Source: a virus. Taken from it: a stretch of 40,634 nucleotides of DNA. The notes below the pieces were generated by a model that worked only from the letters and a program-made list of their open reading frames with translations, was not told the origin of the DNA and ran no database searches. The translations under genes were made by a program, and so were the position numbers. How positions within the stretch are numbered: the stretch's first letter is position 1; each line of letters begins with the position of its first letter. The stretch is taken from IMG/VR virus record IMGVR_UViG_3300032235_000805, positions 1-40,634 of that record. One strand, 5' to 3'. Shown here piece by piece: positions 19,892 through 36,666 of this stretch.

Positions 19892-19927
19892 CTTATACTA
19901 CTGGTACACTTTCAAGGCCCCAGAGTT
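19892..19927 (-). repeat. Intergenic promoter-like element, copy 1
   Basis: Minus strand: ACTCTGGGGCCTTGAAAGTG then TACCAGTAG and TATAAG, 12 bp between TTGAAA and TATAAG. It precedes the 83-aa gene, and it follows the stop codon of the 55-aa gene upstream. Confidence 0.85.
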
Positions 19928-20095
19928 TCATTCAACCAACTGCAGACGATCTATAAACTCCTGCAGATATTCGGTGGGGTCATGACCTAACTCTGCGATA
20001 CGGTTTAACTCATTTAAGACTGTGCTAAACTGTTTCACATAAGGCACGCGGATTCTGTCAGTTTTACCCAGAAAAGTGTAGTTTTTAGGTCTCAT
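19928..20095 (-). CDS. Hypothetical protein, 55 aa
   Basis: MRPKNYTFLGKTDRIRVPYV then a helical acidic C-terminus (TVLNELNRIAELGHDPTEYL). An upstream in-frame ATG would add eight residues (63 aa) but would place a 12-bp inverted repeat inside the coding region, so the inner ATG is preferred. Function unknown. Confidence 0.7.
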   Translation of the reverse strand: MRPKNYTFLGKTDRIRVPYVKQFSTVLNELNRIAELGHDPTEYLQEFIDRLQLVE

Positions 20096-20146
20096 AGTTT
20101 TGTCCCAAAATAGCATCAATATCTATACAGTTTCGGGACAAAACTA
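20095..20146. repeat. Perfect 12-bp inverted repeat before the 55-aa gene
   Basis: TAGTTTTGTCCC at 20095-20106 and its exact complement GGGACAAAACTA at 20135-20146, 28 nt apart. The left arm touches the start codon of the 55-aa gene, so on the mRNA it could form a hairpin that hides the start, or on DNA it could be a paired operator. Confidence 0.75.
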
Positions 20147-20168
20147 ATTGGTATAAAATGATACTAAC

Positions 20169-20342
20169 TCACCATCGATCAGGTGCATTTAGGTCCTCAA
20201 CATACGCATCACACTTCTCTGCAGGTTCCAGCTTAAATAACTTCTCCCAGTCAATCTGATGCGGATCGAAGTCACCGAACACTGATAGATCCAGAGTGAC
20301 CCTATAACGCTGCTTCTGTGCTTGTTGATATGCAACCGACAT
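20169..20342 (-). CDS. Hypothetical protein, 57 aa
   Basis: MSVAYQQAQKQRYRVTLDLS then VFGDFDPHQIDWEKLFKLEP and an acidic end. It looks like a beta-strand/helix miniprotein, similar in style to the 53- and 56-aa MTE-type proteins nearby. It has a good ribosome binding site (AGGAG, 8 nt before the ATG) and a near-consensus sigma70 promoter upstream. Function unknown. Confidence 0.8.
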   Translation of the reverse strand: MSVAYQQAQKQRYRVTLDLSVFGDFDPHQIDWEKLFKLEPAEKCDAYVEDLNAPDRW

Positions 20343-20369
20343 AAGTGTTCTCCTAGGTGTTATGGAACT

Positions 20370-20398
20370 ACTATAAGATGTCTGGGGGTCAATGTCAA
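20370..20398 (-). promoter_or_regulatory. Sigma70-type early promoter, leftward
   Basis: Minus strand TTGACA (20398-20393), exactly 17 bp, TATAGT (20375-20370). It lies 28 nt before the 57-aa gene start, whose leader carries AGGAG. Confidence 0.85.
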
Positions 20399-20469
20399 GA
20401 CCTTGGGGGTATTTATGTGGGGGTGTGGAGTTTTTGTGCGGGGATTGTGAGGATTTTGTGACCCCGGAG

Positions 20470-20499
20470 TTGACAAAAGTGCGGTCCTTATGTTATGCT
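20470..20499 (+). promoter_or_regulatory. Sigma70-type extended -10 promoter, rightward
   Basis: TTGACA (20470-20475), 18 bp, TATGCT (20494-20499) preceded by TGT. It points to the GIY-YIG gene about 200 nt away; shares CTTATGTTATGCT with the promoter at 18813-18841. Confidence 0.65.
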
Positions 20500-20666
20500 C
20501 GGTAAGATCACAAGACCTAGAGACATTTAAATGACTCATAAGTATCGGTCCTCACAGACACTTAAAGACCTTATTGATTCTCATTAAATAACACTTATTG
20601 AGAATGATTTAACGCACAAGATTATATTTATTTCACCATTTAACCCTTCATTTTTATCATCTACCC

Positions 20667-20674
20667 TATAAATA
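20667..20674 (+). promoter_or_regulatory. Perfect T4-type late promoter for the homing endonuclease
   Basis: TATAAATA, an 8/8 match to the T4 late -10, 22 nt before the GIY-YIG ATG. It is the only exact copy I noticed and the only one on the plus strand. Confidence 0.8.
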
Positions 20675-20696
20675 AAAACATATTTGTGTTACTTTA

Positions 20697-21470
20697 ATGG
20701 CATCAATCTACATCATTGAGAATAAGGAAAACGGCAAAAGATATGTGGGTAAAACTACTCTATCAAACCCATATGATAGATGGAGACAACACAAATACAA
20801 TGCTAAAAGTAACTACAATCATATGGTAATCAGTGATGCAATTAGTAAGTATGGAATAGACAATTTTACCTTCTATGTAATAGAAACTTGTGATGATGAA
20901 GTTGTCAATGAAAGAGAAACATATTGGATAAACAAGTTCAATACTTATAAAAATGGATATAACTCAACTCTTGGTGGTGAAGGTGTAAAAAGAGACATAG
21001 AGTTAGCATATCATCCAGACACAATTTCAATCAGTTGCTATACACTAGATGGAAAACATATTAGAGATTATAAGAGTAGAGGTGCAGCAGGTAAAGAGTT
21101 AGGAATTAAAAGAAGTTCTATCACTGCTTGTATTAAAGGAAAGACATTTCAAGCTGGTGGATATAGATGGAGTTGGAAAGATAGTGAGTTAATTGATATT
21201 AAAAAGAGAACAAATACAAGAACTAAAATATACGGTATTCATAAAAATGGCGATAGAAAAGTGTGGGATAGTCAAGCAGATTGTGCCGAAGATATAGAAG
21301 GAAATAGAAAAGTTAATGCTAATGTAAGACGCTCAATCATAAGTCCCAACTATAACAAATTTGAGTGTAAGAATTGGTATCTATTCAGAGAAAATGTTGA
21401 TGAGTTTATAGCAGCAACTCCAAACAGATTTAATAGTGAAACGGGGAGAAAGGCAGCGTTAAAAGCATAA
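20697..21470 (+). CDS. GIY-YIG homing endonuclease with NUMOD DNA-binding modules
   Basis: 257 aa. The GIY-YIG nuclease core is IYIIENKENGKRYVGKT (residues 4-20), with a conserved Arg in DRWRQHK (R28/R30) and the likely metal-binding Glu in ERETYWI (E74). GYNSTLGGEG (88-97) is typical of phage freestanding GIY-YIG enzymes. A NUMOD1-like unit follows (SCYTLDGKHIRDYKSRGAAG, then IKRSSITACIKG and GGYRWSW), and a second repeat-like part starts at IYGIHKNGDRKVWDSQADCA. It is the only convincing plus-strand gene and is AT-rich, consistent with a mobile gene inserted between leftward units. It has both an upstream sigma70-like and a late promoter. Freestanding rather than intron-borne: no broken gene flanks it. 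Confidence 0.9.
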   Translation: MASIYIIENKENGKRYVGKTTLSNPYDRWRQHKYNAKSNYNHMVISDAISKYGIDNFTFYVIETCDDEVVNERETYWINKFNTYKNGYNSTLGGEGVKRDIELAYHPDTISISCYTLDGKHIRDYKSRGAAGKELGIKRSSITACIKGKTFQAGGYRWSWKDSELIDIKKRTNTRTKIYGIHKNGDRKVWDSQADCAEDIEGNRKVNANVRRSIISPNYNKFECKNWYLFRENVDEFIAATPNRFNSETGRKAALKA

Positions 21471-21494
21471 AAAAAGGATGCTGATTAGGCATCC
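21469..21494 (-). terminator. Intrinsic terminator, leftward
   Basis: Minus strand GGATGC, loop CTAATCA, GCATCC, followed by seven T. It ends the leftward unit 21506-22368 and prevents antisense transcription into the homing endonuclease, whose stop codon abuts the T tract. Confidence 0.88.
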
Positions 21495-21505
21495 ATACGT
21501 TATAC

Positions 21506-21733
21506 TCAATCTAGTGCTAGTCTGTGTCTTGCATAATTCTTTGCGTCCTTTCTTGACTTGAATCGTGCTAATTGACCGTCAAATCTTAATGGTTCAAACT
21601 TATACCTAACACGATTCTTGTGTATAACCTTTCGACTATAAAAGTACAGTGAAAAACTACCTTCTTGCTTCTCATCTTTCGTCTTCTCCTTGTTAACAAT
21701 GAACGGAAGATTAACAGTGGTGAGTGTAATCAT
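21506..21733 (-). CDS. Hypothetical basic protein, 75 aa
   Basis: MITLTTVNLPFIVNKEKTKD then a strongly basic C-terminal half (RKVIHKNRVRYKFEPLRFDG, RFKSRKDAKNYARHRLALD). Could bind nucleic acid. It is the last gene of its unit, directly before a terminator, and starts 5 nt after the stop of the 56-aa gene. Confidence 0.75.
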   Translation of the reverse strand: MITLTTVNLPFIVNKEKTKDEKQEGSFSLYFYSRKVIHKNRVRYKFEPLRFDGQLARFKSRKDAKNYARHRLALD

Positions 21734-21737
21734 TGTT

Positions 21738-21908
21738 TCAGTCTTGGGAATGAAGAATGTCGATCATTTGTTGATGAAACTGATCTGCTTCTACCTCACA
21801 TTGATGGGATTGAGTTGCATCTTCGATCTCGTATTGTTTCATACTCAGAGTATGCATAACATCATTGAGAAGATTAGTCAGTGCATCAATCTTTTGTGCT
21901 TCAGTCAT
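21738..21908 (-). CDS. Hypothetical protein, 56 aa
   Basis: MTEAQKIDALTNLLNDVMHT followed by a helical, Glu/Gln/His-rich segment (EDATQSHQCEVEADQFHQQM); probably a coiled-coil. Its start overlaps the end of the 50-aa gene upstream. Function unknown. Confidence 0.75.
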   Translation of the reverse strand: MTEAQKIDALTNLLNDVMHTLSMKQYEIEDATQSHQCEVEADQFHQQMIDILHSQD

Positions 21909-22053
21909 CATTAGGATTTACTTCTTTCAGGACTTGAGTGAACAGATCTATCGCTGCTTGGTTAGCATTGATACGTTTGAGATCTTGAATGTAAAACTCA
22001 AGTGCTTCAATGATTGCATCTTGTTTGAGTTCTTCCCAAGTTGGATTAGTCAT
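21901..22053 (-). CDS. Hypothetical protein, 50 aa
   Basis: MTNPTWEELKQDAIIEALEF then YIQDLKRINANQAAIDLFTQ. All-helical composition. It overlaps the next gene by 8 nt and starts 3 nt after the 103-aa gene's stop, so it is part of a coupled series. Function unknown. Confidence 0.78.
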   Translation of the reverse strand: MTNPTWEELKQDAIIEALEFYIQDLKRINANQAAIDLFTQVLKEVNPNDD

Positions 22054-22056
22054 AGT

Positions 22057-22368
22057 TCAGTTCAGTTTGATGCTATTGTTAAAGGGAACTTCTCCATCCT
22101 TGGTTGATACAAACCAGTTGAAGTTCTTTTGATATACATACTCTCCATTTCCGTGTGCTTGGAGAATAGCATTCAGACGTGATTTAGTAGTGTTTGATTG
22201 ATGTCCGCCATCAAACAATTCCAACCAAGTCTCACCAACCATTGCAATCAGATTGCTATACAGATAGACGAAACTTACGCCTTCAATGTTAATCACTTCC
22301 GTATTGTCTTTCTTCCAATCAACCTCTTGATTGATTGCACGATTCATTTGGGTTTCGATCTTACGCAT
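22057..22368 (-). CDS. Hypothetical protein, 103 aa
   Basis: MRKIETQMNRAINQEVDWKK then a beta-rich part (EVINIEGVSFVYLYSNLIAM) and a C-terminal GNGEYVYQKNFNWFVSTKDG. No recognised domain. It is the first gene after the intergenic element at 22399 with a leader AACTAACAAACAAATG. Soluble. Confidence 0.8.
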   Translation of the reverse strand: MRKIETQMNRAINQEVDWKKDNTEVINIEGVSFVYLYSNLIAMVGETWLELFDGGHQSNTTKSRLNAILQAHGNGEYVYQKNFNWFVSTKDGEVPFNNSIKLN

Positions 22369-22398
22369 TTGTTTGTTAGTTTGAGTTGGGTGGGAGGT

Positions 22399-22437
22399 CT
22401 TATACTAGTAGGACACTTTCAAGGCCCCAGAGTTACT
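22399..22437 (-). repeat. Intergenic promoter-like element, copy 2
   Basis: Minus strand GTAACTCTGGGGCCTTGAAA then GTGTCCTACTAG and TATAAG. It starts 1 nt after the TGA of the 59-aa gene and lies 30 nt before the 103-aa ATG. Confidence 0.88.
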
Positions 22438-22438
22438 A

Positions 22439-22618
22439 TCAGGCAGCGAGTGCAGATTCAAAACAAACTTCACGCTCTTCGATCAAAGCATAATCATAGT
22501 CACCTTCCTCCAATTGCTTAGAGTATGCTTCGGCAGCAGACTTGCAATCAAACAGTCGCAGGGAATCGAAGTGTTCACCTTCATATTCCCAACCACCGAT
22601 CACAGCATAGACTTTCAT
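22439..22618 (-). CDS. Conserved-looking small protein, 59 aa
   Basis: MKVYAVIGGWEYEGEHFDSL then RLFDCKSAAEAYSKQLEEGD. The pattern MKVYAVIGG.YEGE.FDSLRLFDCKSAA.AY recurs, from memory, in cyanophages and cyanobacteria; function unknown. The open frame extends to an ATG at 22639 that overlaps the promoter-like element; the ATG at 22618 is preferred because it lies just after the shared leader AATGAACCAA. Confidence 0.78.
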   Translation of the reverse strand: MKVYAVIGGWEYEGEHFDSLRLFDCKSAAEAYSKQLEEGDYDYALIEEREVCFESALAA

Positions 22619-22634
22619 TTGAGGTTGGTTCATC

Positions 22635-22673
22635 ATCATACTACTAGGACAATTTCAAGGCCCCAGAGTTACT
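22635..22673 (-). repeat. Intergenic promoter-like element, copy 3
   Basis: Minus strand GTAACTCTGGGGCCTTGAAA then TTGTCCTAGTAG and TATGAT, 12-bp spacing; the hexamer overlaps an ATG that I think is not the real start. Confidence 0.88.
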
Positions 22674-22678
22674 ATCAA

Positions 22679-22831
22679 TCAATGTTCGGGTGAGATAATA
22701 TCAGCAACTGTGTGTAGAATGGATGCAGTAGTCTGCCTTACTGATGGGGAGAAAACTAATGCAACAATGAAAACTAAAGTAACAACTTTCACTCTATCTG
22801 GTGATTTGAATGTTAGACTTTTTCGTGACAT
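22679..22831 (-). CDS. Small membrane-anchored protein, 50 aa
   Basis: MSRKSLTFKSPDRVKVVTLV and FIVALVFSPSVRQTT: a basic N-terminus followed by a single hydrophobic stretch (about residues 15-30), typical of a signal anchor, and a short polar tail ending SPEH. Its ATG directly follows the TGA of the 109-aa gene upstream (TGAATG). Function unknown. Confidence 0.72.
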   Translation of the reverse strand: MSRKSLTFKSPDRVKVVTLVFIVALVFSPSVRQTTASILHTVADIISPEH

Positions 22832-23161
22832 TCAAACTCCCAATTCAATCATACGATTTACAATCTTGGAACGAGCAATAGTCTTACCGTTCAGAGTGTA
22901 AGAGAAGCGAACTCCTCCCTTTACAGTCGGAGAGCAACGACAATAGAGTTTTACCTCGTTAATCTTATCTCCGTTCTGATTGTGAAGAGGAAAGTAATAC
23001 GAACACTCACCTGCAATATATGATGCTTTGGAGCGAACATCAACAACTACAGTAGCATTCAGGCGATCAATAATACCATTGCGAGCATCATAATTGTCTC
23101 GGGCAAGTTTGGATGTCAGATTGATGCTATCTTGAATGCGGTCGATGTTATCTTGGATCAT
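22832..23161 (-). CDS. Hypothetical protein, 109 aa
   Basis: An N-terminal helix (MIQDNIDRIQDSINLTSKLA) is followed by a beta-rich domain with Cys residues (GECSYYFPLHNQNGDKINEV, KLYCRCSPTVKGG). An in-frame ATG at 23176 overlaps the upstream element; the start at 23161 follows the AATGAACCAA leader and is preferred. Function unknown. Confidence 0.78.
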   Translation of the reverse strand: MIQDNIDRIQDSINLTSKLARDNYDARNGIIDRLNATVVVDVRSKASYIAGECSYYFPLHNQNGDKINEVKLYCRCSPTVKGGVRFSYTLNGKTIARSKIVNRMIELGV

Positions 23162-23171
23162 TTGGTTCATT

Positions 23172-23210
23172 ATCATACTACTAGGACACTTTCAAGGCCC
23201 CAGAGTTACT
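23172..23210 (-). repeat. Intergenic promoter-like element, copy 4
   Basis: Minus strand GTAACTCTGGGGCCTTGAAA then GTGTCCTAGTAG and TATGAT. Followed by AATGAACCAAATG as in copies 3 and 11. Confidence 0.9.
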
Positions 23211-23217
23211 GTTAGTT

Positions 23218-23430
23218 TCAGTCCTTGATACTTTCCATCAACATCTCTAGCGTCTCCTCATCATACAATTCCTGAATCTCGGAGATAAGTTCTTTCTCAC
23301 TGTATTTGTTAAACTCAACAACGAGACTATCATATGCAAACTGGACTAGAGTATCCATATCCATGCCATCAATCACATAGTTGGCATAGTTATCAATCAG
23401 AGCGGAAAGTTTTTCGTTGGAAAGTGTCAT
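23218..23430 (-). CDS. Hypothetical acidic protein, 70 aa
   Basis: MTLSNEKLSALIDNYANYVI then DGMDMDTLVQFAYDSLVVEF and an acidic C-terminal helix. Start ATG at 23430 sits after ACAAACAAAATG, a leader also seen before the 60-aa gene at 24148; in-frame ATGs at 23460 (overlapping the upstream TGA) and 23466 would lengthen it. Function unknown. Confidence 0.75.
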   Translation of the reverse strand: MTLSNEKLSALIDNYANYVIDGMDMDTLVQFAYDSLVVEFNKYSEKELISEIQELYDEETLEMLMESIKD

Positions 23431-23456
23431 TTTGTTTGTAGGATTAGGAAGGGAAA

Positions 23457-23591
23457 TCATTTGCAATAATTGGGGTCTATTTGACAGAAACGATCTGCTT
23501 CTGATTCTTGATACTCATTTACGGTCGCATATGCTGCATTACCTACCTTAAGTCCAAGTGCCAGAGTAACAATCAAAAAGGCAATTCGCAT
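23457..23591 (-). CDS. Secreted miniprotein with signal peptide, 44 aa
   Basis: MRIAFLIVTLALGLKVGNAA is a clear Sec signal peptide: Arg, a hydrophobic core, and a likely cut near AYA at residues 20-22. The remaining mature peptide of about 22 residues has two Cys (FCQIDPNYC). It would act in the periplasm or thylakoid lumen, perhaps with a disulfide. Too short for family assignment. Confidence 0.72.
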   Translation of the reverse strand: MRIAFLIVTLALGLKVGNAAYATVNEYQESEADRFCQIDPNYCK

Positions 23592-23597
23592 CACAAA

Positions 23598-23768
23598 TCA
23601 ATCAACGACAGAGTAACAAGCAACAGAGGAAGGAATACCACTTAAGGATAGAGAACCATTGCGGGCATCGCAATAATCTTGTGCGTCATCTTCGCTGTAG
23701 AAAGGTCCAATATACTCGGGAGAATCAAGGGCATCAGAAGTGAATCGAACGGTAAAGGTTTCAGTCAT
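23598..23768 (-). CDS. Hypothetical protein, 56 aa
   Basis: MTETFTVRFTSDALDSPEYI then GPFYSEDDAQDYCDARNGSL. Beta-hairpin then helix layout, like the 53-aa protein at 19071-19232. The ATG at 23768 lies 4 nt after the upstream TGA; the open frame to 23816 would overlap that gene. Function unknown. Confidence 0.75.
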   Translation of the reverse strand: MTETFTVRFTSDALDSPEYIGPFYSEDDAQDYCDARNGSLSLSGIPSSVACYSVVD

Positions 23769-23772
23769 ACTA

Positions 23773-23964
23773 TCAGTCAAATCGTGAGGAAGTCCAACCA
23801 TCAGTGAAACCTTCATAATGTCTCACAGAACTGCTAATCTGTTCTTCAGTGAGTGCAAATTGAACCCATTTGCCGTTATCGTATATTTCATAACGAAACC
23901 ACCCGTATTCATTAGAGGGAGTGATTTGATAGGTTTTGTTTGTATCAGGAGAGGTAAATGTCAT
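23773..23964 (-). CDS. Hypothetical protein, 63 aa
   Basis: MTFTSPDTNKTYQITPSNEY then GWFRYEIYDNGKWVQFALTE and a C-terminal helix. Beta-rich and aromatic. Start at 23964 is 1 nt after the TGA of the 60-aa gene, better than the ATG/alternative start at 23991 inside it. Function unknown. Confidence 0.76.
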   Translation of the reverse strand: MTFTSPDTNKTYQITPSNEYGWFRYEIYDNGKWVQFALTEEQISSSVRHYEGFTDGWTSSRFD

Positions 23965-23965
23965 T

Positions 23966-24148
23966 TCAGAGACCATTGATAAAGTCAGCAAGAGCGTCTT
24001 TGTATTCAGTTTCAGTCTCGAAAGTACGACCGTAGATTGTACGCGGATAGGTCACGTTTTGTTGACCTACTGCAGCAACATTATGGCAGTCTTGTTCGTC
24101 ATAACCCATCTCAATCAGGTTTTGAACGTAAGGGTTGTTGTTTGTCAT
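23966..24148 (-). CDS. Hypothetical protein, 60 aa
   Basis: MTNNNPYVQNLIEMGYDEQD resembles UBA-like three-helix starts (ENLIEMGY), then CHNVAAVGQQNVTYPRTIYG. The resemblance to UBA is weak and only by motif. Leader CTAACAAAATG is shared with neighbours. Function unknown. Confidence 0.74.
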   Translation of the reverse strand: MTNNNPYVQNLIEMGYDEQDCHNVAAVGQQNVTYPRTIYGRTFETETEYKDALADFINGL

Positions 24149-24160
24149 TTTGTTAGTTTA

Positions 24161-24307
24161 TCAGTCGGAAACTTTTAGAAGGTCGTTGAGTTTATCTAAC
24201 AGAGGTTCAATATCAAACCCCCAGACCTCTTTTACCTCATCCCAATCATCATGAAAATCAATGAGAGTGAGAATGTTTTGAATGTCGTCTTTAGTGAGAG
24301 TTTGCAT
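24161..24307 (-). CDS. Hypothetical acidic protein, 48 aa
   Basis: MQTLTKDDIQNILTLIDFHD then DWDEVKEVWGFDIEPLLDKL. Short acidic helical protein. An ATG at 24325 overlaps the hexamer of the upstream element (giving 54 aa, MSDTQTMQTL...); the internal ATG is preferred if that element is a promoter. First gene of a coupled series of six. Confidence 0.75.
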   Translation of the reverse strand: MQTLTKDDIQNILTLIDFHDDWDEVKEVWGFDIEPLLDKLNDLLKVSD

Positions 24308-24320
24308 CGTTTGGGTGTCG

Positions 24321-24359
24321 CTCATACTACTAGAACACTTTGAAGGCCCCAGGAGTTAC
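24321..24359 (-). repeat. Intergenic promoter-like element, copy 5
   Basis: Minus strand GTAACTCCTGGGGCCTTCAA then AGTGTTCTAGTAG and TATGAG; TTGAAA is TTCAAA here, and an extra C lies before TGGGG. The element begins within the TAG stop of the 60-aa gene. Confidence 0.86.
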
Positions 24360-24541
24360 TAACTCGCTGCAAGGTTGGGAATAAAGCACCATTCATAACT
24401 TCCGTCTTCTGGGTTAGTTCCATCCACAACAAATTCACTGTAAATTGCATCTGATGTGGCATAATCTTCTTGATCTACAAAGAACTCAAGACGCTCCAGA
24501 AGTGTGGAGGACATTGCATCGATCAGGAATTGTTTTGTCAT
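24359..24541 (-). CDS. Hypothetical protein, 60 aa
   Basis: MTKQFLIDAMSSTLLERLEF then FVDQEDYATSDAIYSEFVVD and a C-terminal SYEWCFIPNLAAS. Soluble. It ends exactly at the next intergenic element. Function unknown. Confidence 0.76.
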   Translation of the reverse strand: MTKQFLIDAMSSTLLERLEFFVDQEDYATSDAIYSEFVVDGTNPEDGSYEWCFIPNLAAS

Positions 24542-24577
24542 TTGTGTGTAAAGAAAGTGTGCTGCTAAATTAGACGA

Positions 24578-24721
24578 TCAGTTAAACTTTGCGTTTACAC
24601 CAATTACCTTTGCTGTAGGATTTCGTGCTGTTGCTGTCTCGCGGGCATCTTTAGGAGAGTTTGCATACACTTCCTCCTTAAAGACTTTGCCACCGACGTA
24701 TAGTTGAACTTCATACTTCAT
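24578..24721 (-). CDS. Hypothetical protein, 47 aa
   Basis: MKYEVQLYVGGKVFKEEVYA then NSPKDARETATARNPTAKVI. A small beta-hairpin plus helix; the pattern VxAxSPxDAxxxAxARNPxAxVIGV is coherent for a real protein. Second gene after the element at 24948. Function unknown. Confidence 0.78.
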   Translation of the reverse strand: MKYEVQLYVGGKVFKEEVYANSPKDARETATARNPTAKVIGVNAKFN

Positions 24722-24727
24722 AATCAA

Positions 24728-24952
24728 TCAAACAGGAAGAACACAGAAAGTTCCACACCATTTGCGAACCCATTGTAGAGTTTCATCGTAAGAAGTGCGG
24801 GGTTTCGACATAGGCATCGACACATTCTTTTCGGGATTGTATGCAATAGCAACGAACTTGTCTTCTACTTGCTGAATCCACATTTGATTGACTTTACCTT
24901 CCTTCCAATTTGTGTGGTAGGAGTAGATTTCGGAAACGATGTTGTTTGTCAT
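24728..24952 (-). CDS. Hypothetical protein, 74 aa
   Basis: MTNNIVSEIYSYHTNWKEGK then VNQMWIQQVEDKFVAIAYNP. Its apparent ATG overlaps the hexamer of element copy 6 and, unlike other cases, there is no nearby downstream in-frame ATG; the next (24883) would give 51 aa beginning MWIQQVEDKF. So either the short form is real or the element acts in RNA rather than as a promoter here. Function unknown. Confidence 0.72.
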   Translation of the reverse strand: MTNNIVSEIYSYHTNWKEGKVNQMWIQQVEDKFVAIAYNPEKNVSMPMSKPRTSYDETLQWVRKWCGTFCVLPV

Positions 24953-24984
24953 ACTACTAGGACACTTTCAAGGCCCCAGGGTTA
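24948..24984 (-). repeat. Intergenic promoter-like element, copy 6
   Basis: Minus strand TAACCCTGGGGCCTTGAAAG then TGTCCTAGTAG and TATGAC, hexamer overlapping an ATG. Confidence 0.87.
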
Positions 24985-25009
24985 GTAACATCAAGTTGCA
25001 TGAGTAACT

Positions 25010-26155: not shown

Positions 26156-26156
26156 T

Positions 26157-26741: not shown

Positions 26742-26757
26742 TTGACTTTGTGCGGTT

Positions 26758-26794
26758 CTCATACTACTAGAACACTTTCAAGGCCCAGAGTTAC
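26758..26794 (-). repeat. Intergenic promoter-like element, copy 7
   Basis: Minus strand GTAACTCTGGGCCTTGAAAG then TGTTCTAGTAG and TATGAG; one G of the GGGG run is missing. Confidence 0.87.
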
Positions 26795-27693: not shown

Positions 27694-27703
27694 TGGTTTG
27701 GTC

Positions 27704-27742
27704 TTCATACTACTGATACACTTTCAAGGCCCCAGGAGTTGC
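27704..27742 (-). repeat. Intergenic promoter-like element, copy 8
   Basis: Minus strand GCAACTCCTGGGGCCTTGAA then AGTGTATCAGTAG and TATGAA, overlapping an ATG; another in-frame ATG follows 15 nt later. Confidence 0.86.
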
Positions 27743-27954: not shown

Positions 27955-27976
27955 CGGAGTTTCACGAAAATGAGTG

Positions 27977-28014
27977 GTTATACTACAGGAACACTTTCAA
28001 GGCCCCAGAGTTAC
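27977..28014 (-). repeat. Intergenic promoter-like element, copy 9
   Basis: Minus strand GTAACTCTGGGGCCTTGAAA then GTGTTCCTGTAG and TATAAC, 22 nt before the 67-aa ATG. Confidence 0.88.
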
Positions 28015-29694: not shown

Positions 29695-29704
29695 AATTTA
29701 ATCG

Positions 29705-29743
29705 GTTACACTACAGAAACAATTTAAAGGCCCCAGAGTTAGT
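29705..29743 (-). repeat. Intergenic promoter-like element, copy 10 (divergent)
   Basis: Minus strand CTAACTCTGGGGCCTTTAAA then TTGTTTCTGTAG and TGTAAC. The most diverged of the long copies; heads the nuclease-methyltransferase pair. Confidence 0.82.
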
Positions 29744-31246: not shown

Positions 31247-31350
31247 AATTACACTTTCAAAAAAATCGATGATTTGGATGCAGTGGATGACCTATGGCAC
31301 CTCTGCGGTAGAATTGAAGAAAAATCAGGTTTTGTCCCCAGTCAGGGCCT

Positions 31351-31370: not shown

Positions 31371-32600
31371 CCGCCTCACCACCGACACGGCAGGTTCGCC
31401 CTTTTCAAAGATCGTATCAACAACTGCCTGCACCGAGCGAGCAGTAGCAATACCAACCTTGGAATACACAGGGATACACACAAGACCGAACGATTTGCTA
31501 TACTGCTCCAGTGCTCCAGGTTGGATACGTCCATCGCGGAGACCTTTGGCATCATCGTGATGCAGTCGGATGCAGCGTCCGATAGTCTGGGAGATGCCAA
31601 TAAAGTCCATATTCCGCATAAACAAGACTGCCTCAAGTCCAGACACATTGATGCCCTCACTCAAGATGCTATGGTGCAGAACAACAAACTTCTTGTCGTT
31701 ATCCTTACCCCAGGCAGAGAGGGTGTCAAAGAATACCTCACGGTTCACTTTCTTGCCGTCAATGACAGCACCAGTCTTGGCAGTGATATACATCCAAGAG
31801 TAACCACGCTGCTGTAGTTCGTGGCAGAAGTCAGTTTCAGACACCAGAGACACGATTTGCTTGGTTGCTTTAGCACAAACAAGAATCTTGCCTACAGCAT
31901 TGTCATCAATCGTTTCCAGCAGATTCTCCGCATCGCGATCAAAGTTGGTCTGCTTTCCCTTCACCATCTCCAGTTGCTTGACGATAACTTTAGGGGGCAC
32001 AATGTATCCACCCTCAACAAGTTCAGGAGCAGGAACTTTGCAGATTACCTGACCGTAAACAACAGCATCATTCATCCCAGGTTTACCCATAGCAAGACTA
32101 TGTTTGGGAGTTGCAGTAAAGAAGTAGCAGCGTCGTGCATTAGCAGCAAAGTGCTCTGTTGCAGGGAAGAAGTGACGCTGAACGCTGTTATGTGCCTCAT
32201 CAAAGTAGATCGTATCCACATCAATCTCTGCTGCTTGGAGGCGAGACAGAGAGTGATAGGTGGTTACAATCAGTTTGTGATTATCAGCATTGGCATCAAC
32301 CCACTTGCGGATTACGCGAGGATGAGTAGAGGATTCGTGATGAGTTTCGCCGCTGTGAACGTGAAATACAGCAGCATTGGTGATAAACTCAAGGAATTCG
32401 GAAGAGAGTTGCTCTGCCAGCAGAATGCGGGGAGCAACAACTACAATAGTCTGGGGAGTTTCAGACTGCAACTGGCGAAGACAATCGTAGATCATCTTCA
32501 GAGTCTTGCCACCGCCAGTAGGAACAATGATCTGCCCTTTGTCGTGCTTAAGCATAGCAGCAACGCCACGCTTTTGATGGGGGCGGAGGTTGATTTGCAT
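31368..32600 (-). CDS. SF2 DNA/RNA helicase (DEAH, UvsW-like type)
   Basis: 410 aa from the preferred ATG. Motifs in order: Q-like LRPHQKRGVAAML, Walker A VPTGGGKT, Ia VVVAPRILLAEQL, DEAH box, TAT in FFTATPKHS, a C-terminal RecA domain with ILVCAKATKQ, LHHSILSEGINV, and motif VI QTIGRCIRLHH. It is shorter than T4 UvsW but similar in layout; it would remodel branched DNA or act as a type-I-like translocase. The start could also be one of three ATGs overlapping element copy 11; the one after AACCAA is preferred. Confidence 0.9.
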   Translation of the reverse strand: MQINLRPHQKRGVAAMLKHDKGQIIVPTGGGKTLKMIYDCLRQLQSETPQTIVVVAPRILLAEQLSSEFLEFITNAAVFHVHSGETHHESSTHPRVIRKWVDANADNHKLIVTTYHSLSRLQAAEIDVDTIYFDEAHNSVQRHFFPATEHFAANARRCYFFTATPKHSLAMGKPGMNDAVVYGQVICKVPAPELVEGGYIVPPKVIVKQLEMVKGKQTNFDRDAENLLETIDDNAVGKILVCAKATKQIVSLVSETDFCHELQQRGYSWMYITAKTGAVIDGKKVNREVFFDTLSAWGKDNDKKFVVLHHSILSEGINVSGLEAVLFMRNMDFIGISQTIGRCIRLHHDDAKGLRDGRIQPGALEQYSKSFGLVCIPVYSKVGIATARSVQAVVDTIFEKGEPAVSVVRR

Positions 32601-32610
32601 TTGGTTCATC

Positions 32611-32647
32611 ATCATATTATAAGGACACTTTGAAGGCCCCAGGGTTT
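32611..32647 (-). repeat. Intergenic promoter-like element, copy 11
   Basis: Minus strand AAACCCTGGGGCCTTCAAAG then TGTCCTTATAA and TATGAT, followed by the shared leader GATGAACCAAATG. Confidence 0.85.
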
Positions 32648-32650
32648 CAA

Positions 32651-32842
32651 TTATTCTGCTTGAGTTTTCAGGGATTGAAGGTCTCTAATGACTTGTTGCA
32701 TCGCAGAGCGAGAATATCCAGTCGCATAAGGATAACCTTCAATACCAGGATTGTTAGGAGCAGTATAGCATACATTCACAGCACTTTCAAGACCTTCAAT
32801 CAACCTTTCAAGTGCAGTTTCTGGGATTTTAATGTATTTCAT
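32651..32842 (-). CDS. Hypothetical protein, 63 aa
   Basis: MKYIKIPETALERLIEGLES then AVNVCYTAPNNPGIEGYPYA and a C-terminal helix. Two helices around a Tyr/Pro loop. The gene is preceded by the terminator at 32877, so it may need its own promoter (weak TTTACA seen at about 32862). Function unknown. Confidence 0.76.
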   Translation of the reverse strand: MKYIKIPETALERLIEGLESAVNVCYTAPNNPGIEGYPYATGYSRSAMQQVIRDLQSLKTQAE

Positions 32843-32876
32843 TAGTTCAAGTGGTTTGATATGTAAAGACTAAAAT

Positions 32877-32907
32877 AGAGCACTTCTAGAGGCATCTAGA
32901 GTGCTCT
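32877..32907 (-). terminator. Long hairpin, probable terminator
   Basis: Minus strand AGAGCACTCTAGA, loop, TCTAGAAGTGCTCT with one bulged base, then ATTTTAG. A 13-bp stem right after the 77-aa gene; the T tract is only four long. Confidence 0.65.
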
Positions 32908-32919
32908 GGTGACAGAGTA

Positions 32920-33153
32920 TCAACCGCCAAACATCTCATCAAGGAGATTATTCATTTCGCGGATTTCACCTTGTCGGTCAATCAAGTTACGCATCTGAAT
33001 GAGGCGATCTTGTTCCATCTTGAGTATAAGAAGTGCGTCACCAATGTGATGCAGTTTGTTGTTAATCTCTACACGATCCAGACCATCAACAGTGGTAACT
33101 AAATGTTCCATTCCATTGATGATTCTGGGTTCGTCAGTAACAGTGAAGGTCAT
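32920..33153 (-). CDS. Hypothetical coiled-coil protein, 77 aa
   Basis: MTFTVTDEPRIINGMEHLVT then a heptad-like helical region (HIGDALLILKMEQDRLIQMR, REMNNLLDEMFGG). Single-gene unit between element copy 12 and a terminator. Function unknown. Confidence 0.78.
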   Translation of the reverse strand: MTFTVTDEPRIINGMEHLVTTVDGLDRVEINNKLHHIGDALLILKMEQDRLIQMRNLIDRQGEIREMNNLLDEMFGG

Positions 33154-33165
33154 TCAAAAATCTTG

Positions 33166-33202
33166 CTTATACTACTGGAACACTTTGAAGGCCCCAGAGT
33201 TA
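33166..33202 (-). repeat. Intergenic promoter-like element, copy 12
   Basis: Minus strand GTAACTCTGGGGCCTTCAAA then GTGTTCCAGTAG and TATAAG, 13 nt before the 77-aa ATG. Confidence 0.88.
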
Positions 33203-33204
33203 CA

Positions 33205-33816
33205 TTACTTTGGTGTGTAGTCGTGCTTGAGTTGAACTTGTTCTGGTTTCTTACCTTGCTTTTCTGCTTCAGATTGTCTTACAAGAGTTTCAAGTTTTCT
33301 GTGCCCTGCTCTAGTAATCTCCTTTCTTTTCTCTCTTGACATACCAACAACAGCACGTTTTGGTTGCCCTTCAGGTCTCTTATCTACTTCAGTTTTCTTT
33401 GTCTTGAGAAGTTGTGATGCAGTTTTTGTTGCTTCCTTTGCTTTAGGTTGAGATGCTGCTGGTGCAGATCCACCACCTTTCTTTGCAGCAATTCTTGCTA
33501 ATGCTGCCTTCTTTCTTTCTTCTTTTGCTGCTTCTGCTGCCTTTGCTTTTACATCAGCACTTCCACGTTCTTGAGTTGGTTGCTGAACTCTTGTGGATGC
33601 TTGTCTTTGAGTGCCAATATCCTTTCTTGGTTTATAGTCTGTTGGTTTTCTTTCTTCTCCAGGCTTTGCCTGTGCCATTCTACGCTTTTCAGGAGCAGTC
33701 TTTTTACGTTCAGCACCGATACGACCGCCTTCACCAGTTCTTCTAATTTGAGAAGAACCCATAACCTCCTTGTCGTATACTTCGGCAAGAATCATAAACT
33801 CCTGAAAAGTCTTCAT
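33205..33816 (-). CDS. Basic internal-protein candidate with T4-like capsid-targeting N-terminus
   Basis: 203 aa, extremely rich in Lys, Arg, Ala and Gln, low complexity and probably disordered (AAEAAKEERKKAALARIAAK). The N-terminus MKTFQEFMILAEVYDKEV matches the T4 internal-protein capsid targeting sequence MKTYQEFIAEA, and LAE fits the T4 gp21 protease cleavage rule (L/I-A/G/S/T-E). A late-type promoter lies 24 nt upstream although neighbours are early-type. I infer a protein packed in the head, cleaved, and perhaps injected with DNA. Homology is from memory of T4 IPI-III; T4 internal proteins are similarly small and basic. Confidence 0.8.
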   Translation of the reverse strand: MKTFQEFMILAEVYDKEVMGSSQIRRTGEGGRIGAERKKTAPEKRRMAQAKPGEERKPTDYKPRKDIGTQRQASTRVQQPTQERGSADVKAKAAEAAKEERKKAALARIAAKKGGGSAPAASQPKAKEATKTASQLLKTKKTEVDKRPEGQPKRAVVGMSREKRKEITRAGHRKLETLVRQSEAEKQGKKPEQVQLKHDYTPK

Positions 33817-33840
33817 CTGTATCTAAAAACTACCTTGAGT

Positions 33841-33848
33841 TATTTATC
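33841..33848 (-). promoter_or_regulatory. T4-type late promoter before the internal-protein candidate
   Basis: Minus strand GATAAATA, 7/8 match to TATAAATA, overlapping the TGA of the 72-aa gene, 24 nt before the ATG. Confidence 0.68.
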
Positions 33849-34065
33849 AGTCAGAATCCTCAAGTAGACCTAGTGCCTTATCTGCTGCAGATTTAGAACC
33901 TACAAAAACTTGTTTCGTTTCATAAAAATAACGAACACGTTCACGACGAGCAGCAATCAAAATGTCGTATTCTTCTTGTTGCTGTTTAGTAAACTTAAAA
34001 TCTTGCTTACGCCAAGCATCTTTCAGTTCGTTGAGATGAGGCAGAACATTTACAGTTTGAGTCAT
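33847..34065 (-). CDS. Hypothetical protein, 72 aa
   Basis: MTQTVNVLPHLNELKDAWRK then QDFKFTKQQQEEYDILIAAR and a C-terminal QVFVGSKSAADKALGLLED. Basic helical core. Its TGA overlaps the following late promoter. Function unknown. Confidence 0.8.
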   Translation of the reverse strand: MTQTVNVLPHLNELKDAWRKQDFKFTKQQQEEYDILIAARRERVRYFYETKQVFVGSKSAADKALGLLEDSD

Positions 34066-34067
34066 AA

Positions 34068-34205
34068 TCAGTAATCGTAATTGGAGTTCAAATAGGTGTT
34101 AAAGGATTTTGAATTATCTTCCTCCTCAAAGAGACCTTCATTCATCTCTTCAACAAAGTCAAAGGAAGAAAACTCCTCTACTGAAAGATCATCAAAGTCG
34201 TCCAT
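34068..34205 (-). CDS. Hypothetical acidic protein, 45 aa
   Basis: MDDFDDLSVEEFSSFDFVEE then MNEGLFEEEDNSKSFNTYLN. One third acidic residues with regularly spaced Phe; probably disordered or a DNA/partner mimic. First gene after copy 13, and its TGA lies 2 nt before the next ATG. Function unknown. Confidence 0.76.
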   Translation of the reverse strand: MDDFDDLSVEEFSSFDFVEEMNEGLFEEEDNSKSFNTYLNSNYDY

Positions 34206-34218
34206 TTGAGTTTGAGTG

Positions 34219-34254
34219 CTTACATTATTAGGACACTTTCAAGGCCCCAGAGTT
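34219..34254 (-). repeat. Intergenic promoter-like element, copy 13
   Basis: Minus strand AAACTCTGGGGCCTTGAAAG then TGTCCTAATAA and TGTAAG, 14 nt before an ATG. Confidence 0.86.
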
Positions 34255-34258
34255 TTTA

Positions 34259-34450
34259 TCAGCGAGACAGTATTGCTTTCATTCTAGCTTTCTTTGCTGC
34301 TAGTTGTGCTCCTGCTTCGTGCTCCATTTCTCCGTGTGCTTGACGGATTTGCATACCTTTCCAACGTGCAGATTGTCTTGCAACTTGTTTGTTATACTCA
34401 TTGGGTTGCATTGTTGGATGCTGTTCCATAAACTGCTGGAAGGTTTTCAT
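34259..34450 (-). CDS. Small basic protein with MKTFQQFM N-terminus
   Basis: 63 aa. MKTFQQFMEQHPTMQPNEYN shares the first eight residues with the 203-aa internal-protein candidate and with T4 capsid-targeting sequences, but lacks the L/I-x-E cleavage site. The rest is basic and helical (RQSARWKGMQIRQAHGEMEH, AKKARMKAIL). A late-type promoter lies 19 nt upstream. Plausibly a second packaged protein. Confidence 0.76.
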   Translation of the reverse strand: MKTFQQFMEQHPTMQPNEYNKQVARQSARWKGMQIRQAHGEMEHEAGAQLAAKKARMKAILSR

Positions 34451-34469
34451 TTCTACTACACTTTTTGAG

Positions 34470-34477
34470 TATTTATT
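34470..34477 (-). promoter_or_regulatory. T4-type late promoter before the 63-aa MKTFQQFM gene
   Basis: Minus strand AATAAATA, overlapping the TAA stop of the 48-aa gene, 19 nt before the ATG. Confidence 0.68.
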
Positions 34478-34619
34478 TCACAAGTATCTTTATATCCCTT
34501 GCACCTTGCTTTTCTATTACACTCTGCCAAAAAGCAGCATCATCAATTGTGAGGAAGGTTGCTGTTTGTTTAGAGTAACCCTTCTTTTTGGGTTGGAGAT
34601 ACTGTACCAGGTACTTCAT
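34473..34619 (-). CDS. Hypothetical protein, 48 aa
   Basis: MKYLVQYLQPKKKGYSKQTA then TFLTIDDAAFWQSVIEKQGA and a beta end. It overlaps the end of the membrane-protein gene upstream by 50 nt in another frame; a longer start at 34658 is unlikely for that reason. The style (beta, loop, helix, beta) is that of a real small domain. Function unknown. Confidence 0.68.
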   Translation of the reverse strand: MKYLVQYLQPKKKGYSKQTATFLTIDDAAFWQSVIEKQGARDIKILVK

Positions 34620-34824
34620 AAGGATTTTCAATAAAGATTTCAATTTTTGTATCATCATTCCAGTGCCTAATCACACCTGCAACGATGAAGCAGTTTGTAA
34701 TCAAATAAGTAGCAAAAATCACGGTGCGAATGACCGCAACCGTGTCGCTTTCTTTATCACATTTAGATGCTTTCTCTCCAATGGACTTCGCCCACCATCG
34801 CCACCAGTTGTTACTCTTTTTCAT
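34570..34824 (-). CDS. Single-span membrane protein, 84 aa
   Basis: A basic Trp-rich N-terminus (MKKSNNWWRWWAKSIGEKAS) is followed by one membrane segment (VIRTVIFATYLITNCFIVAG, about 31-50) and an acidic/proline tail. Its ATG overlaps the TGA of the 58-aa gene (ATGA). Function unknown. Confidence 0.78.
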   Translation of the reverse strand: MKKSNNWWRWWAKSIGEKASKCDKESDTVAVIRTVIFATYLITNCFIVAGVIRHWNDDTKIEIFIENPYEVPGTVSPTQKEGLL

Positions 34825-34997
34825 TTTCCATCTGCTAGTACAACATTCTTAAAATCAGATTGATAAACAACTACGCGAACATCTTGTGAACGGTGAGGAC
34901 CTTTATTGACAAGAATTGAAATAGATTGATCTGATGCAAATGCTACTATTCCAGAAATAGTTTTGTAAATTACTTCAGTTCCTTCAGTAAAGATCAT
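34821..34997 (-). CDS. Hypothetical protein, 58 aa
   Basis: MIFTEGTEVIYKTISGIVAF then ASDQSISILVNKGPHRSQDV and RVVVYQSDF. All-beta, SH3/OB-like layout (GTEV.YKT..G.V.F...QSISILV). It may be a small nucleic-acid or RNA-polymerase binding protein, but this is only fold-style reasoning. Overlaps both neighbours by 4 nt. Confidence 0.79.
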   Translation of the reverse strand: MIFTEGTEVIYKTISGIVAFASDQSISILVNKGPHRSQDVRVVVYQSDFKNVVLADGK

Positions 34998-35293
34998 ACG
35001 AAAAATGCCTCCAATCCTTGATAGTTAATAGACATAGAAGTCCAGGGACGAGTATCACTGAACTTTACTTCTTTGCCAACTGTTGTACTATTTACAGGAC
35101 TAAAGAACTGACACTTTTTGTAGTTGTAGAACCCCCAGATGGTGCGTGTAAGTTTACCATTATTGTAATCAAACCTACGCTTGCAAACCAACCAAACAGA
35201 AAACACATTACGCTTGAACTCTTCAACTTCATAATAATACCCTTCAGGTGCTTTATGCTTGAATTGAGGAATCAAATCAATGGAGAGTTTCAT
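34994..35293 (-). CDS. Hypothetical protein, 99 aa
   Basis: MKLSIDLIPQFKHKAPEGYY then YEVEEFKRNVFSVWLVCKRR and a C-terminal Tyr/Trp-rich part. Beta-rich and aromatic. Coupled at both ends (TGATG and ATGA). Function unknown. Confidence 0.79.
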   Translation of the reverse strand: MKLSIDLIPQFKHKAPEGYYYEVEEFKRNVFSVWLVCKRRFDYNNGKLTRTIWGFYNYKKCQFFSPVNSTTVGKEVKFSDTRPWTSMSINYQGLEAFFV

Positions 35294-35460
35294 CAGCAGT
35301 CATAATCACGCTCGGTAGACAGTAGAGTAATCATAGTTTTGAGTTTAGCAATCTCTTGCTCTTGCTCTTCAATTTTAGACTGAAGACGTTGAATTTGTGT
35401 TTGATACTGTTCTTTCAAATCAAAGAGCATTTTGTTTGTATGTGCTACGTTGTGCGTCAT
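35293..35460 (-). CDS. Coiled-coil protein, 55 aa
   Basis: After MTHNVAHTNKM, a continuous coiled coil (LFDLKEQYQTQIQRLQSKIE, EQEQEIAKLKTMITLL). The inner ATG at 35430, preceded by ACAAACAAA, is an alternative start giving 45 aa. Its TGA overlaps the next ATG by one base. Function unknown. Confidence 0.74.
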   Translation of the reverse strand: MTHNVAHTNKMLFDLKEQYQTQIQRLQSKIEEQEQEIAKLKTMITLLSTERDYDC

Positions 35461-35462
35461 AA

Positions 35463-35705
35463 TCAGGTCGTAAAGGATTCAACAACAATAGATTCTAGAT
35501 CTTCAGAGAGAGCATAAGTTCTCGCATTCAGAATATTCTCACGAAGAGTTGTATAATACTTCTCATAGAAAGAAGCATCATCTTCGGCAGTAATCAAATC
35601 AAAACATTCATTATCGTTTTCTGCAATCACATTCCAGAGTCCACCATACTCACTGGAAGGAAATGGAATGTAATGATCTACGATATAAAGAAACTTTTGT
35701 GCCAT
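35463..35705 (-). CDS. Hypothetical protein, 80 aa
   Basis: MAQKFLYIVDHYIPFPSSEY then GGLWNVIAENDNECFDLITA and helical acidic parts. Beta-alpha layout, soluble. The stop lies 2 nt before the coiled-coil gene start. Function unknown. Confidence 0.79.
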   Translation of the reverse strand: MAQKFLYIVDHYIPFPSSEYGGLWNVIAENDNECFDLITAEDDASFYEKYYTTLRENILNARTYALSEDLESIVVESFTT

Positions 35706-35731
35706 TGTGTTTTGTAAATTACTCCTTAAGT

Positions 35732-35830
35732 TTAGAACTGATTGTTGTCTTTGTCAATATCTGAAGTGACAATAAGTGCTGCTCCCATAGTTGCAAGAAC
35801 GCCAAGTGCAAATCCAAGAATGAATGTCAT
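35732..35830 (-). CDS. Tiny membrane protein, 32 aa
   Basis: MTFILGFALGVLATMGAALI then VTSDIDKDNNQF. One hydrophobic helix of about 20 residues and an acidic tail. The ATG overlaps the TAA of the 45-aa gene (TAATG). Such miniproteins in phage often alter membrane-bound host complexes, but nothing here shows the target. Confidence 0.7.
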   Translation of the reverse strand: MTFILGFALGVLATMGAALIVTSDIDKDNNQF

Positions 35831-35967
35831 TAGTAAAATTCTGCAAGATAATAATCTACAGTAATCTCAAGTTTTGCTGCTTCACTCTCAACTTCTTTCC
35901 AAAAATCTTCTGCTACTTTACTCATTTCTGCTTGTTTAATAAGGTCGCGGAGTCGTTTGGAGATCAT
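35830..35967 (-). CDS. Hypothetical protein, 45 aa
   Basis: MISKRLRDLIKQAEMSKVAE then DFWKEVESEAAKLEITVDYY. Two amphipathic helices, soluble. Overlaps the membrane-protein genes on both sides (ATGA and TAATG). Function unknown. Confidence 0.76.
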   Translation of the reverse strand: MISKRLRDLIKQAEMSKVAEDFWKEVESEAAKLEITVDYYLAEFY

Positions 35968-36122
35968 TTGATTTGATTACTAGGAGGATTCTTGAGATTT
36001 TCTACTGCTTTTGTGCGATAGTATGAATTATAAAGACTTTCATCTCGTTGGATTAGAAACGCATTCCAACCAAGAATAACTGCGAAACCAATCAATCCAG
36101 CGATCACATATTTAGAATTCAT
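35964..36122 (-). CDS. Small membrane protein, 52 aa
   Basis: MNSKYVIAGLIGFAVILGWN then AFLIQRDESLYNSYYRTKAV. An N-terminal membrane helix with a polar cytoplasmic or periplasmic tail. Coupled by ATGA overlaps. Function unknown. Confidence 0.74.
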   Translation of the reverse strand: MNSKYVIAGLIGFAVILGWNAFLIQRDESLYNSYYRTKAVENLKNPPSNQIK

Positions 36123-36241
36123 TGTTTAATCTCAATAGTTGATTTCAAGAGTTCATTATCGCGTTTATTCTTATAATAACTCATAAAAATATCACAGACA
36201 CAATAACCAAAGGCAAATGCTGCCATAAAAGTAGTAATCAT
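36119..36241 (-). CDS. Tiny membrane protein, 40 aa
   Basis: MITTFMAAFAFGYCVCDIFM then SYYKNKRDNELLKSTIEIKQ. A hydrophobic half with CxC (CVC) and a basic half. Start overlaps the TGA of the 128-aa gene (ATGA). Function unknown. Confidence 0.72.
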   Translation of the reverse strand: MITTFMAAFAFGYCVCDIFMSYYKNKRDNELLKSTIEIKQ

Positions 36242-36624
36242 ACTGCAAGTGCTTCAGAGGGGATTTCAACGATTTCGGGCAGTTTGGCATCATCAAACTG
36301 ATGCATATTATAGCACACCCACTCACCGTTGCGGAAGACATATGCATACTCTTCGCTGTTATCAGGCAGAAGATACTCGCAAAGGTCAGCATCAAGGCGA
36401 GGAGGGCAATTATCACCACGAGCAGAATAATACTCAGGTTGGTGGTCGTCATTCCAAGCAACAGACATATCACCACCGTCAATCAGTTCGGCAGCAAGTT
36501 CTTTGCTATTGTAATGCGTCTTCAAGATGCGACCCAACCAAGACTCATAACCGTCCCAGTGGTGATATGCAGAAAGAATCGAACCATCAGCAAGTTCAAG
36601 ACCGATGCGAGAGCGGGTTGCCAT
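36238..36624 (-). CDS. Conserved-looking phage protein, 128 aa
   Basis: MATRSRIGLELADGSILSAY then HHWDGYESWLGRILKTHYNS and LIDGGDMSVAWNDD. The pattern MATRSRIG.E..DGS..S.YHHWDGYP..LG..L..HYN recurs in many phage and bacterial hypothetical proteins (from memory), with unknown function; the conserved His-His-Trp-Asp could bind metal or nucleotide. Heads the longest coupled unit after copy 14. Confidence 0.83.
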   Translation of the reverse strand: MATRSRIGLELADGSILSAYHHWDGYESWLGRILKTHYNSKELAAELIDGGDMSVAWNDDHQPEYYSARGDNCPPRLDADLCEYLLPDNSEEYAYVFRNGEWVCYNMHQFDDAKLPEIVEIPSEALAV

Positions 36625-36635
36625 TTCAAGTGTTG

Positions 36636-36666
36636 CTTACATTACTGGAACACTTTCAAGGCCCCA
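36636..36666 (-). repeat. Intergenic promoter-like element, copy 14
   Basis: Minus strand TTTTGGGGCCTTGAAAGTGT then TCCAGTAA and TGTAAG; the left part is replaced by T-rich DNA after the CP12 stop. It lies 12 nt before the 128-aa ATG. Confidence 0.84.

Follow-up and report, generated by a model that had tools for sequence, protein, structure and literature searches.

A promoter-like element with lineage-specific boxes in the small-gene cluster of T4-like cyanophages, and a basic protein that follows its box type

The window considered here, the whole 40,634-nucleotide stretch of IMG/VR virus record IMGVR_UViG_3300032235_000805, is a record of a T4-like cyanophage in which PHROGs identifies baseplate wedge proteins and a DNA helicase, the latter with relatives in 418 phage records bearing the names Synechococcus, cyanophage, Prochlorococcus or marine virus. 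A leftward cluster of small genes in this window is divided into blocks by a repeated intergenic element that follows a common plan, namely a 9-base-pair (bp) box, a 12-bp spacer (AAAGTGTCCCTA) and a TAGTRT hexamer of the -10 kind, and the same cluster holds a gene for a basic protein of 203 residues. The element is likely to function as a phage-specific promoter, and comparison of sequences among related phages suggests that its box type follows this one protein, as though the virus carried its own key for its own switches. With columns numbered from the start of the box (columns 0-33 in each copy), the box occupies columns 0-8 and the -10 columns 21-26.

All 14 copies placed in the window by an earlier reading of its sequence alone (the original prediction) were recovered, every one on the minus strand. 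A scan with GGGGCCTTSAAAGTGT found 11 copies without mismatch, two with one mismatch and one with two, and the reversed pattern had no match in the window at up to two mismatches. A matrix built from the 14 copies scores them between 44.7 and 67.1, while outside them the best minus-strand site of the window reaches -6.9 and the best plus-strand site -16.3, a gap of more than 50 units between the element copies and everything else. As also predicted, each copy sits after a stop codon and ahead of a gene block; in all 14 cases an open frame at least 40 codons long lies upstream, its stop codon starting 9-35 nucleotides ahead of the box. Terminator-like sites number 15 between positions 19500 and 37500, against 11.3 expected, and one of them overlaps a copy of the element.

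Every one of these copies holds the box at columns 0-8, the 12-bp spacer and TA(A/G)T(A/G)T at columns 21-26. The first, reading leftward, lies at 36632..36665 and carries the box GGGGCCTTG, the 12-bp spacer and the -10 TAATGT, which recurs in the copy at 34215..34248; the copy at 33162..33195 has TAGTAT, that at 32607..32640, upstream of the uvsW-like helicase gene, has TAATAT and an in-frame ATG at column 25, and that at 29701..29734, with two mismatches in the 16-mer, has TAGTGT. After a further TAGTAT copy at 27973..28006 come the copies at 27700..27733, upstream of a phrog_455 gene, and at 26754..26787, whose box starts with TGGGCC, both with an in-frame ATG at column 25. The same ATG stands in the copy at 24944..24977, where it is the sole in-frame ATG of the downstream gene up to column 88, and, again in frame, in those at 24317..24350, 23168..23201 and 22631..22664, while the last two copies, at 22395..22428 and 19888..19921, share the -10 TAGTAT. 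The -10 originally proposed, TATAAG or TATGAT at columns 24-29, was dropped because its last base varies (G in seven copies, C and T in three each, A in one); the best conserved downstream hexamer lies three bases earlier. TATAGT at columns 19-24 was rejected as well, T19 and A20 standing at only about 0.5 outside the GGGGCC box type.

A 12-bp spacing recurs in related phages, where spacer and -10 stand behind other boxes. A BLAST search of the phage collection with the window's element found nothing, and the proximal half of the element was recognised through SynMITS9220M01, a phage from a Synechococcus culture, in which another box (CTCACCTCT) precedes the spacer and -10 of the window. A scan of IMG/VR with the 16-mer gave 95 stretches, with seven chance-looking ones excluded, and among its 334 distinct copies T21, A22, T24 and T26 have frequencies of.97,.94,.99 and.95. 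The box, spacer and -10 layout is common also to 215 distinct copies of other box types, with corresponding frequencies of.99,.96, 1.0 and.98 that are favoured by the search itself, a core pattern allowing up to four mismatches. Scanning for AAAGTGTCCCTATAGTRTRA returned at least 120 stretches of many box types, those among the matches listed including GGGCCCCTG, GGGACGTGY, CTCACCTCT, GAGGCTTCT, GGATCGTCC and others; further variants occur in S-SM2, S-B05, RN05-S and AG-345-O18. Spacer and -10 are kept in SynMITS9220M01, S-SM2 and other cyanophage contigs and have diverged in S-B05, RN05-S and P-TIM68, with GTCC displaced by one base in S-B05-like phages. The repeat and its architecture are firm observations.

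SynMITS9220M01, S-SM2, S-B05 and RN05-S (180-209 kb scanned per record) each hold 10-11 copies by their own pattern, all on one strand of one 9-14 kb cluster of small open reading frames (ORFs), while S-SM2 and S-B05 each have a single extra match outside the cluster, which in S-B05 immediately precedes a displaced phrog_455 gene. Syn9 has no copies, Bellamy two scattered core matches and S-SKS1 three. Dispersed enriched 10-mers number 13-32 in the clusters of seven records with the basic protein; among eight phages lacking it (nine stretches), five have 0-1, P-SSM2 has 3, S-SCSM1 13 and ACG-2014f 54, and in the last two the 10-mers belong to other motifs and the core is not matched.

The chief reason to regard the element as a promoter is that it stands at the place of its relatives' promoter-like sequences. 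In element-lacking phages, as judged by eye, phrog_455 orthologues are preceded by TATAAT (Syn9) or TATCTT (Bellamy) and uvsW orthologues by TATACT (Syn9, Bellamy) or TATAAT (S-SKS1), and some cluster genes of ACG-2014f, P-SSM2 and S-PM2 by another kind of unit, whose -10 resembles TATACT or TATAAT. None of the 53 listed matches to a sigma70-type -35/-10 pair (TTGACA-like, 16-18 bp apart) falls on any of the 14 copies, in keeping with the phage-specific, promoter-like class at block starts, laid out like a T4 middle promoter, that had been proposed. That absence also bears on the notion that the box is an operator- or stoperator-like repressor site laid over an ordinary promoter and blocking the cluster. 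Asymmetric, oriented and dispersed sites near gene starts do recall mycobacteriophage stoperators, and lineage-specific box types would suit immunity types, but with no sigma70-type pair on any copy little is left for an unaided promoter, and we regard this account as decidedly improbable.

In T4 middle promoters, about 12 bp lie between the MotA box and the -10, and the element likewise has an activator box in place of the -35, a distance of about 12 bp and a sigma70-type -10; it is unlike them in its box, which differs in sequence and comes in many lineage types behind which the spacer is conserved. MotA itself was rejected as the reader of the box, given that its N-domain (PF09114) matched none of seven cyanophage records (T4 control, 3.2e-63) and that the box sequence differs by inspection; PF09158 matched none of eight records in a search made without a T4 control. 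The roles of MotA and AsiA at T4 middle promoters are treated in PMC5780444, and PMC2984593 and PMC5780444 report AsiA missing from marine cyanomyoviruses and describe the switching on of early and middle genes in T4-like cyanophages as unclear, motA and asiA both being missing. A promoter for a phage single-subunit RNA polymerase of the T7 type, starting at column 23-25, is largely refuted and keeps a very slight chance indeed: CCCTATAGT resembles T7-family cores and the turnover of boxes is like that among T7, T3 and SP6, and a start at column 25 would explain the ATG found there, but PF00940 has no match in 13 records (six of them from IMG/VR and possibly partial), nor in P-TIM68 or AG-345-O18, with the T7 control at 9.9e-110.

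The unknown activator of the original prediction now has a candidate in the 203-residue basic protein encoded at 33205..33816 on the minus strand (N-terminus MKTFQEFMILAEVYD), which occurs along with the element and whose tree tracks the box type. It was picked from the ORFs shared by the element-bearing SynMITS9220M01, S-SM2, S-B05 and RN05-S as against the element-lacking Syn9, Bellamy and S-SKS1. The protein, of about 200 residues, has tblastn matches in only 10 phage records, representing eight phages, with public homologues in S-SM2 (ADO97407.1), SynMITS9220M01 (QJT70066.1) and P-TIM68 (AIR93418.1). In an alignment of the protein, the invariant residues include R64, D66, G68 and R84-G85-S86, and the N-terminus has the form MKT..F..EAYD; Pfam and PHROGs gave no match at E up to 1. 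A TAAATA motif, the core of the T4-like late promoter and judged here as a sequence motif, lies at 33841..33846 (minus strand), 30 nucleotides before the protein's ATG, and recurs 22-32 nucleotides ahead of the ATG in 34 of the 36 homologues, some of them nearly identical, whose upstream DNA is long enough; the RN05-S and S-B05 homologues have no such motif. In its basic character, late-promoter motif and MKT..F..EA-like N-terminus, the protein is like the T4 internal head proteins (IPI-III and Alt), and we take the N-terminus to resemble their head-targeting signal. It is unlike them in the coupling of its phylogeny to promoter box type, a coupling that is not known for the T4 proteins. The existence of a head-targeting signal in T4 is described in PMC3012670. 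The small neighbouring frame at 35463-35705 was rejected as the factor, its 19 records including P-SSM2, whose cluster stretch has no core match.

Protein and element occur together. The protein is present in 19 of 30 records, and the 11 without it are Syn9, Bellamy, S-SKS1, S-PM2 (where the element scan covered 8.2 kb), S-B43 and six element-bearing IMG/VR records that are either short (G012, G015, G016) or end near the expected place (G001, G004, G006). From the protein, the element was predicted in two records that the element searches had missed, and it was found in both, as 13 copies in P-TIM68 and as three boxes, two with a TANTRT -10, in AG-345-E15. Among the 80 loci fetched by the protein, the best scoring of its 455 IMG/VR relatives, the element is present in 79, with at least two copies in 76; 421 copies lie forward and none in reverse, the reversed-sequence control giving three. 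Although 45 of these loci had also come from the element scans, 34 of the other 35 have the element as well (165 copies forward, none in reverse). Since the gene lies inside the cluster, closeness in the genome helps this count.

Box type varies from one lineage to another, and the copies of a single locus mostly share one type, as in 85 of 95 labelled loci (92 of which have at least two copies); the window is among the 10 mixed ones through one substituted copy alone. Box-type changes were counted on the tree of the protein and on those of 21 other window frames; these, out of 63 tried, each occur in 15 or more of the loci used for the protein and amount to about 17 distinct genes, with four nested or overlapping. 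Fewer changes are needed on the protein tree in all 21 comparisons, also at equal length: 16 against 28 for uvsW (69 loci, minimum 10), 14 against 29 for phrog_455 (59 loci), and 13 against 29 for the adjacent frame at 33850-34098 (64 loci). An earlier run with nine chosen genes agrees, and a first run with five genes gave one tie. The C-terminal part of the protein comes close to the full length in this respect, and it is mainly in this part that the most type-informative columns are found. On these comparisons, the pairing of box type with one protein appears well supported.

In the mechanism that we favour, each block of small genes would have one phage-specific promoter. Its -10 would be recognised by host RNA polymerase, no -35 hexamer being available, and its 9-bp box, at about -33 to -25, by a phage factor that recruits the polymerase across the constant 12-bp spacer, with transcription starting at columns 31-34. 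Because box and factor must match, the copies of one genome would switch type together. The most likely factor would be the basic protein of the same cluster, for which the late-promoter motif and the head-targeting-like N-terminus together prompt the proposal that it is made late, packed in the head and injected; it would then open the cluster at the start of the next infection. The elements are thus probably activator-dependent promoters, laid out like T4 middle promoters without MotA and served by a virion-delivered factor, and the original interpretation as a whole is partly supported. For the complete explanation, with the element as a phage-specific promoter and the basic protein as its likely factor, packed and injected, we estimate a probability of about one half. 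That tailed phages have here a virion-delivered, sequence-specific activator, a late-made and injected head protein that reads a lineage-specific box of the cluster promoters and co-evolves with it, is offered more tentatively, as somewhat short of an even bet.

A number of observations weigh against this explanation, some on the side of the protein and others on that of the start site. The protein predicted for S-B43 was not found, though the record looks rearranged, and one locus with the protein (L327) has no element that could be found; the loci fetched by the protein were, moreover, its best-scoring relatives. AlphaFold renders the protein as separate helices with no confident fold (mean predicted local distance difference test score, 67.9; predicted template modelling score, 0.26), and no DNA-binding domain is therefore recognised. 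Copies of more than one box type occur in L158, L303, L310, L315, L316 and L323, such mixed loci being possibly recombinants in transition. When the protein is set against its own trimmed copy, the trees give 17 and 14 steps, a noise of about three, so that three-step differences mean little and several short controls fall within them; the tree comparison is also limited to cluster genes, and another gene could fit equally. Missing fold, cluster-only trees and the S-B43 record would all suit a promoter of this layout whose box is read by some other phage or host protein, the basic protein being a head protein that simply follows the genome backbone more closely than the mobile genes around it do. 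We consider this rather unlikely: the element accompanies the protein in nearly all protein-chosen loci, also in those not reached by the element scans, two of three protein-based predictions held, and the adjacent gene requires more than twice the steps of the protein.

On the side of the start site, the difficulty is the ATG at column 25. It shares the frame of the following gene in 162 of the 169 copies that have both this ATG and a called ORF (from 348 copies in all, 11 without a called ORF); a second, partly overlapping set has the ATG in frame, with the frame open, in 148 of 156 copies. For 43 of the 148, a further start codon is lacking up to column 75, and transcripts starting at columns 31-34 therefore cannot express the gene except by readthrough. 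The ATG, which lies inside the -10, is hard to reconcile with transcription from immediately beyond it unless translation takes place on readthrough mRNA; either the actual start is farther upstream or mRNAs of both kinds are in use. In genes with this ATG, the next in-frame ATG is at column 40 in 53 of 133. The frame lock would be explained by an RNA element, a leader signal for mRNA processing or for translation without a Shine-Dalgarno sequence, with the ATG serving as start codon on long transcripts; families like MKNTHLEHPED, which start at this ATG with no other in the stretch examined, agree with it, and one GGGGCC-type copy folds at z -2.1. An RNA element is nonetheless quite improbable, as the hairpin is not conserved in other types, with pair 2-16 formed in 27% and pair 3-15 in 49% of the 215 copies, as 128 of 240 copies have no ATG at column 25 and start distances vary, and as orthologues elsewhere have promoter-like -10 motifs at about the same place. 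Conservation as RNA structure only, which the original prediction had named as telling against itself, is not what the box types display. The near-dyad that it described is present in the window's box type and falls away as a functional feature, other lineages being without it; near-dyad and hairpin were both dropped as conserved features. Rfam gave no match in the window at gathering score.

The close known systems also include the putative middle promoter proposed for P-SSM4 and Syn9, and not found in P-SSM2, S-PM2 or S-RSM4, in PMC2984593. Like it, the element is a proposed phage-specific, non-late promoter of cyanomyoviruses; the likeness is drawn from the description, and the present element is not found in Syn9. 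The promoter-early-stem-loop (PeSL) cassettes of T4 (PMC4503421) are likewise repeated intergenic promoter cassettes that split a hyperplastic region of small genes, whereas the element has neither a conserved stem-loop nor a sigma70 -35. Closer to PeSL is the unit of the element-lacking ACG-2014f, which also lacks the protein (L349, 1300-17200): in the 12 copies shown it is comprised of TGTGACAGTT, AAGTGGCACA, often a GC-rich stem, TGCTATACTA and CATACC. The start-associated sequences of cluster K mycobacteriophages and the intergenic repeats of halovirus HF2 are similarly short conserved repeats just upstream of many genes, but of other hosts and of different sequence. The candidate factor differs from MotA in its late motif and probable packaging, and in the latter respect it is akin to the virion RNA polymerases of N4 and jumbo phages, as a virion-packed protein (here putative) that starts early transcription; it differs from the N4 enzyme in being a small basic protein and no polymerase. 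Among the papers listed by the literature searches, none describes the element or the protein, the Syn9 transcriptome and PeSL papers lying outside their reach. The analysis supplies a concrete promoter-like class together with a candidate factor that can be named in publicly available phage genomes, and the matched natural variants lend themselves to box-swap tests. Should the factor be injected, it would parallel, among phages, the activators that other viruses carry in their virions, VP16 of herpes viruses being one, and it could account for gene control that differs between lineages when cyanobacteria are co-infected. Each phage lineage would, if this is true, bring the key to its own locks, with box and key evolving together.

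Some minor features of these clusters may be added. A gene for a GIY-YIG/NUMOD homing endonuclease lies at 20697-21470 on the plus strand, opposite to the leftward cluster that contains it, and the RN05-S and S-B43 clusters have an opposite-strand endonuclease too. Late-like TAAATA motifs also occur on the minus strand at 34475 and 36917, before the small ORFs at 34259-34450 and 36678-36890. Cluster genes lie far apart in S-B05 and S-B43 (L214, L275) as compared with RN05-S, which may reflect rearrangement in assembly. In P-TIM68 (L273, 17148-26049), a Shine-Dalgarno-like AAGGA follows 5 of the 13 copies, while the leaders of other lineages are rich in A and C and poor in G.

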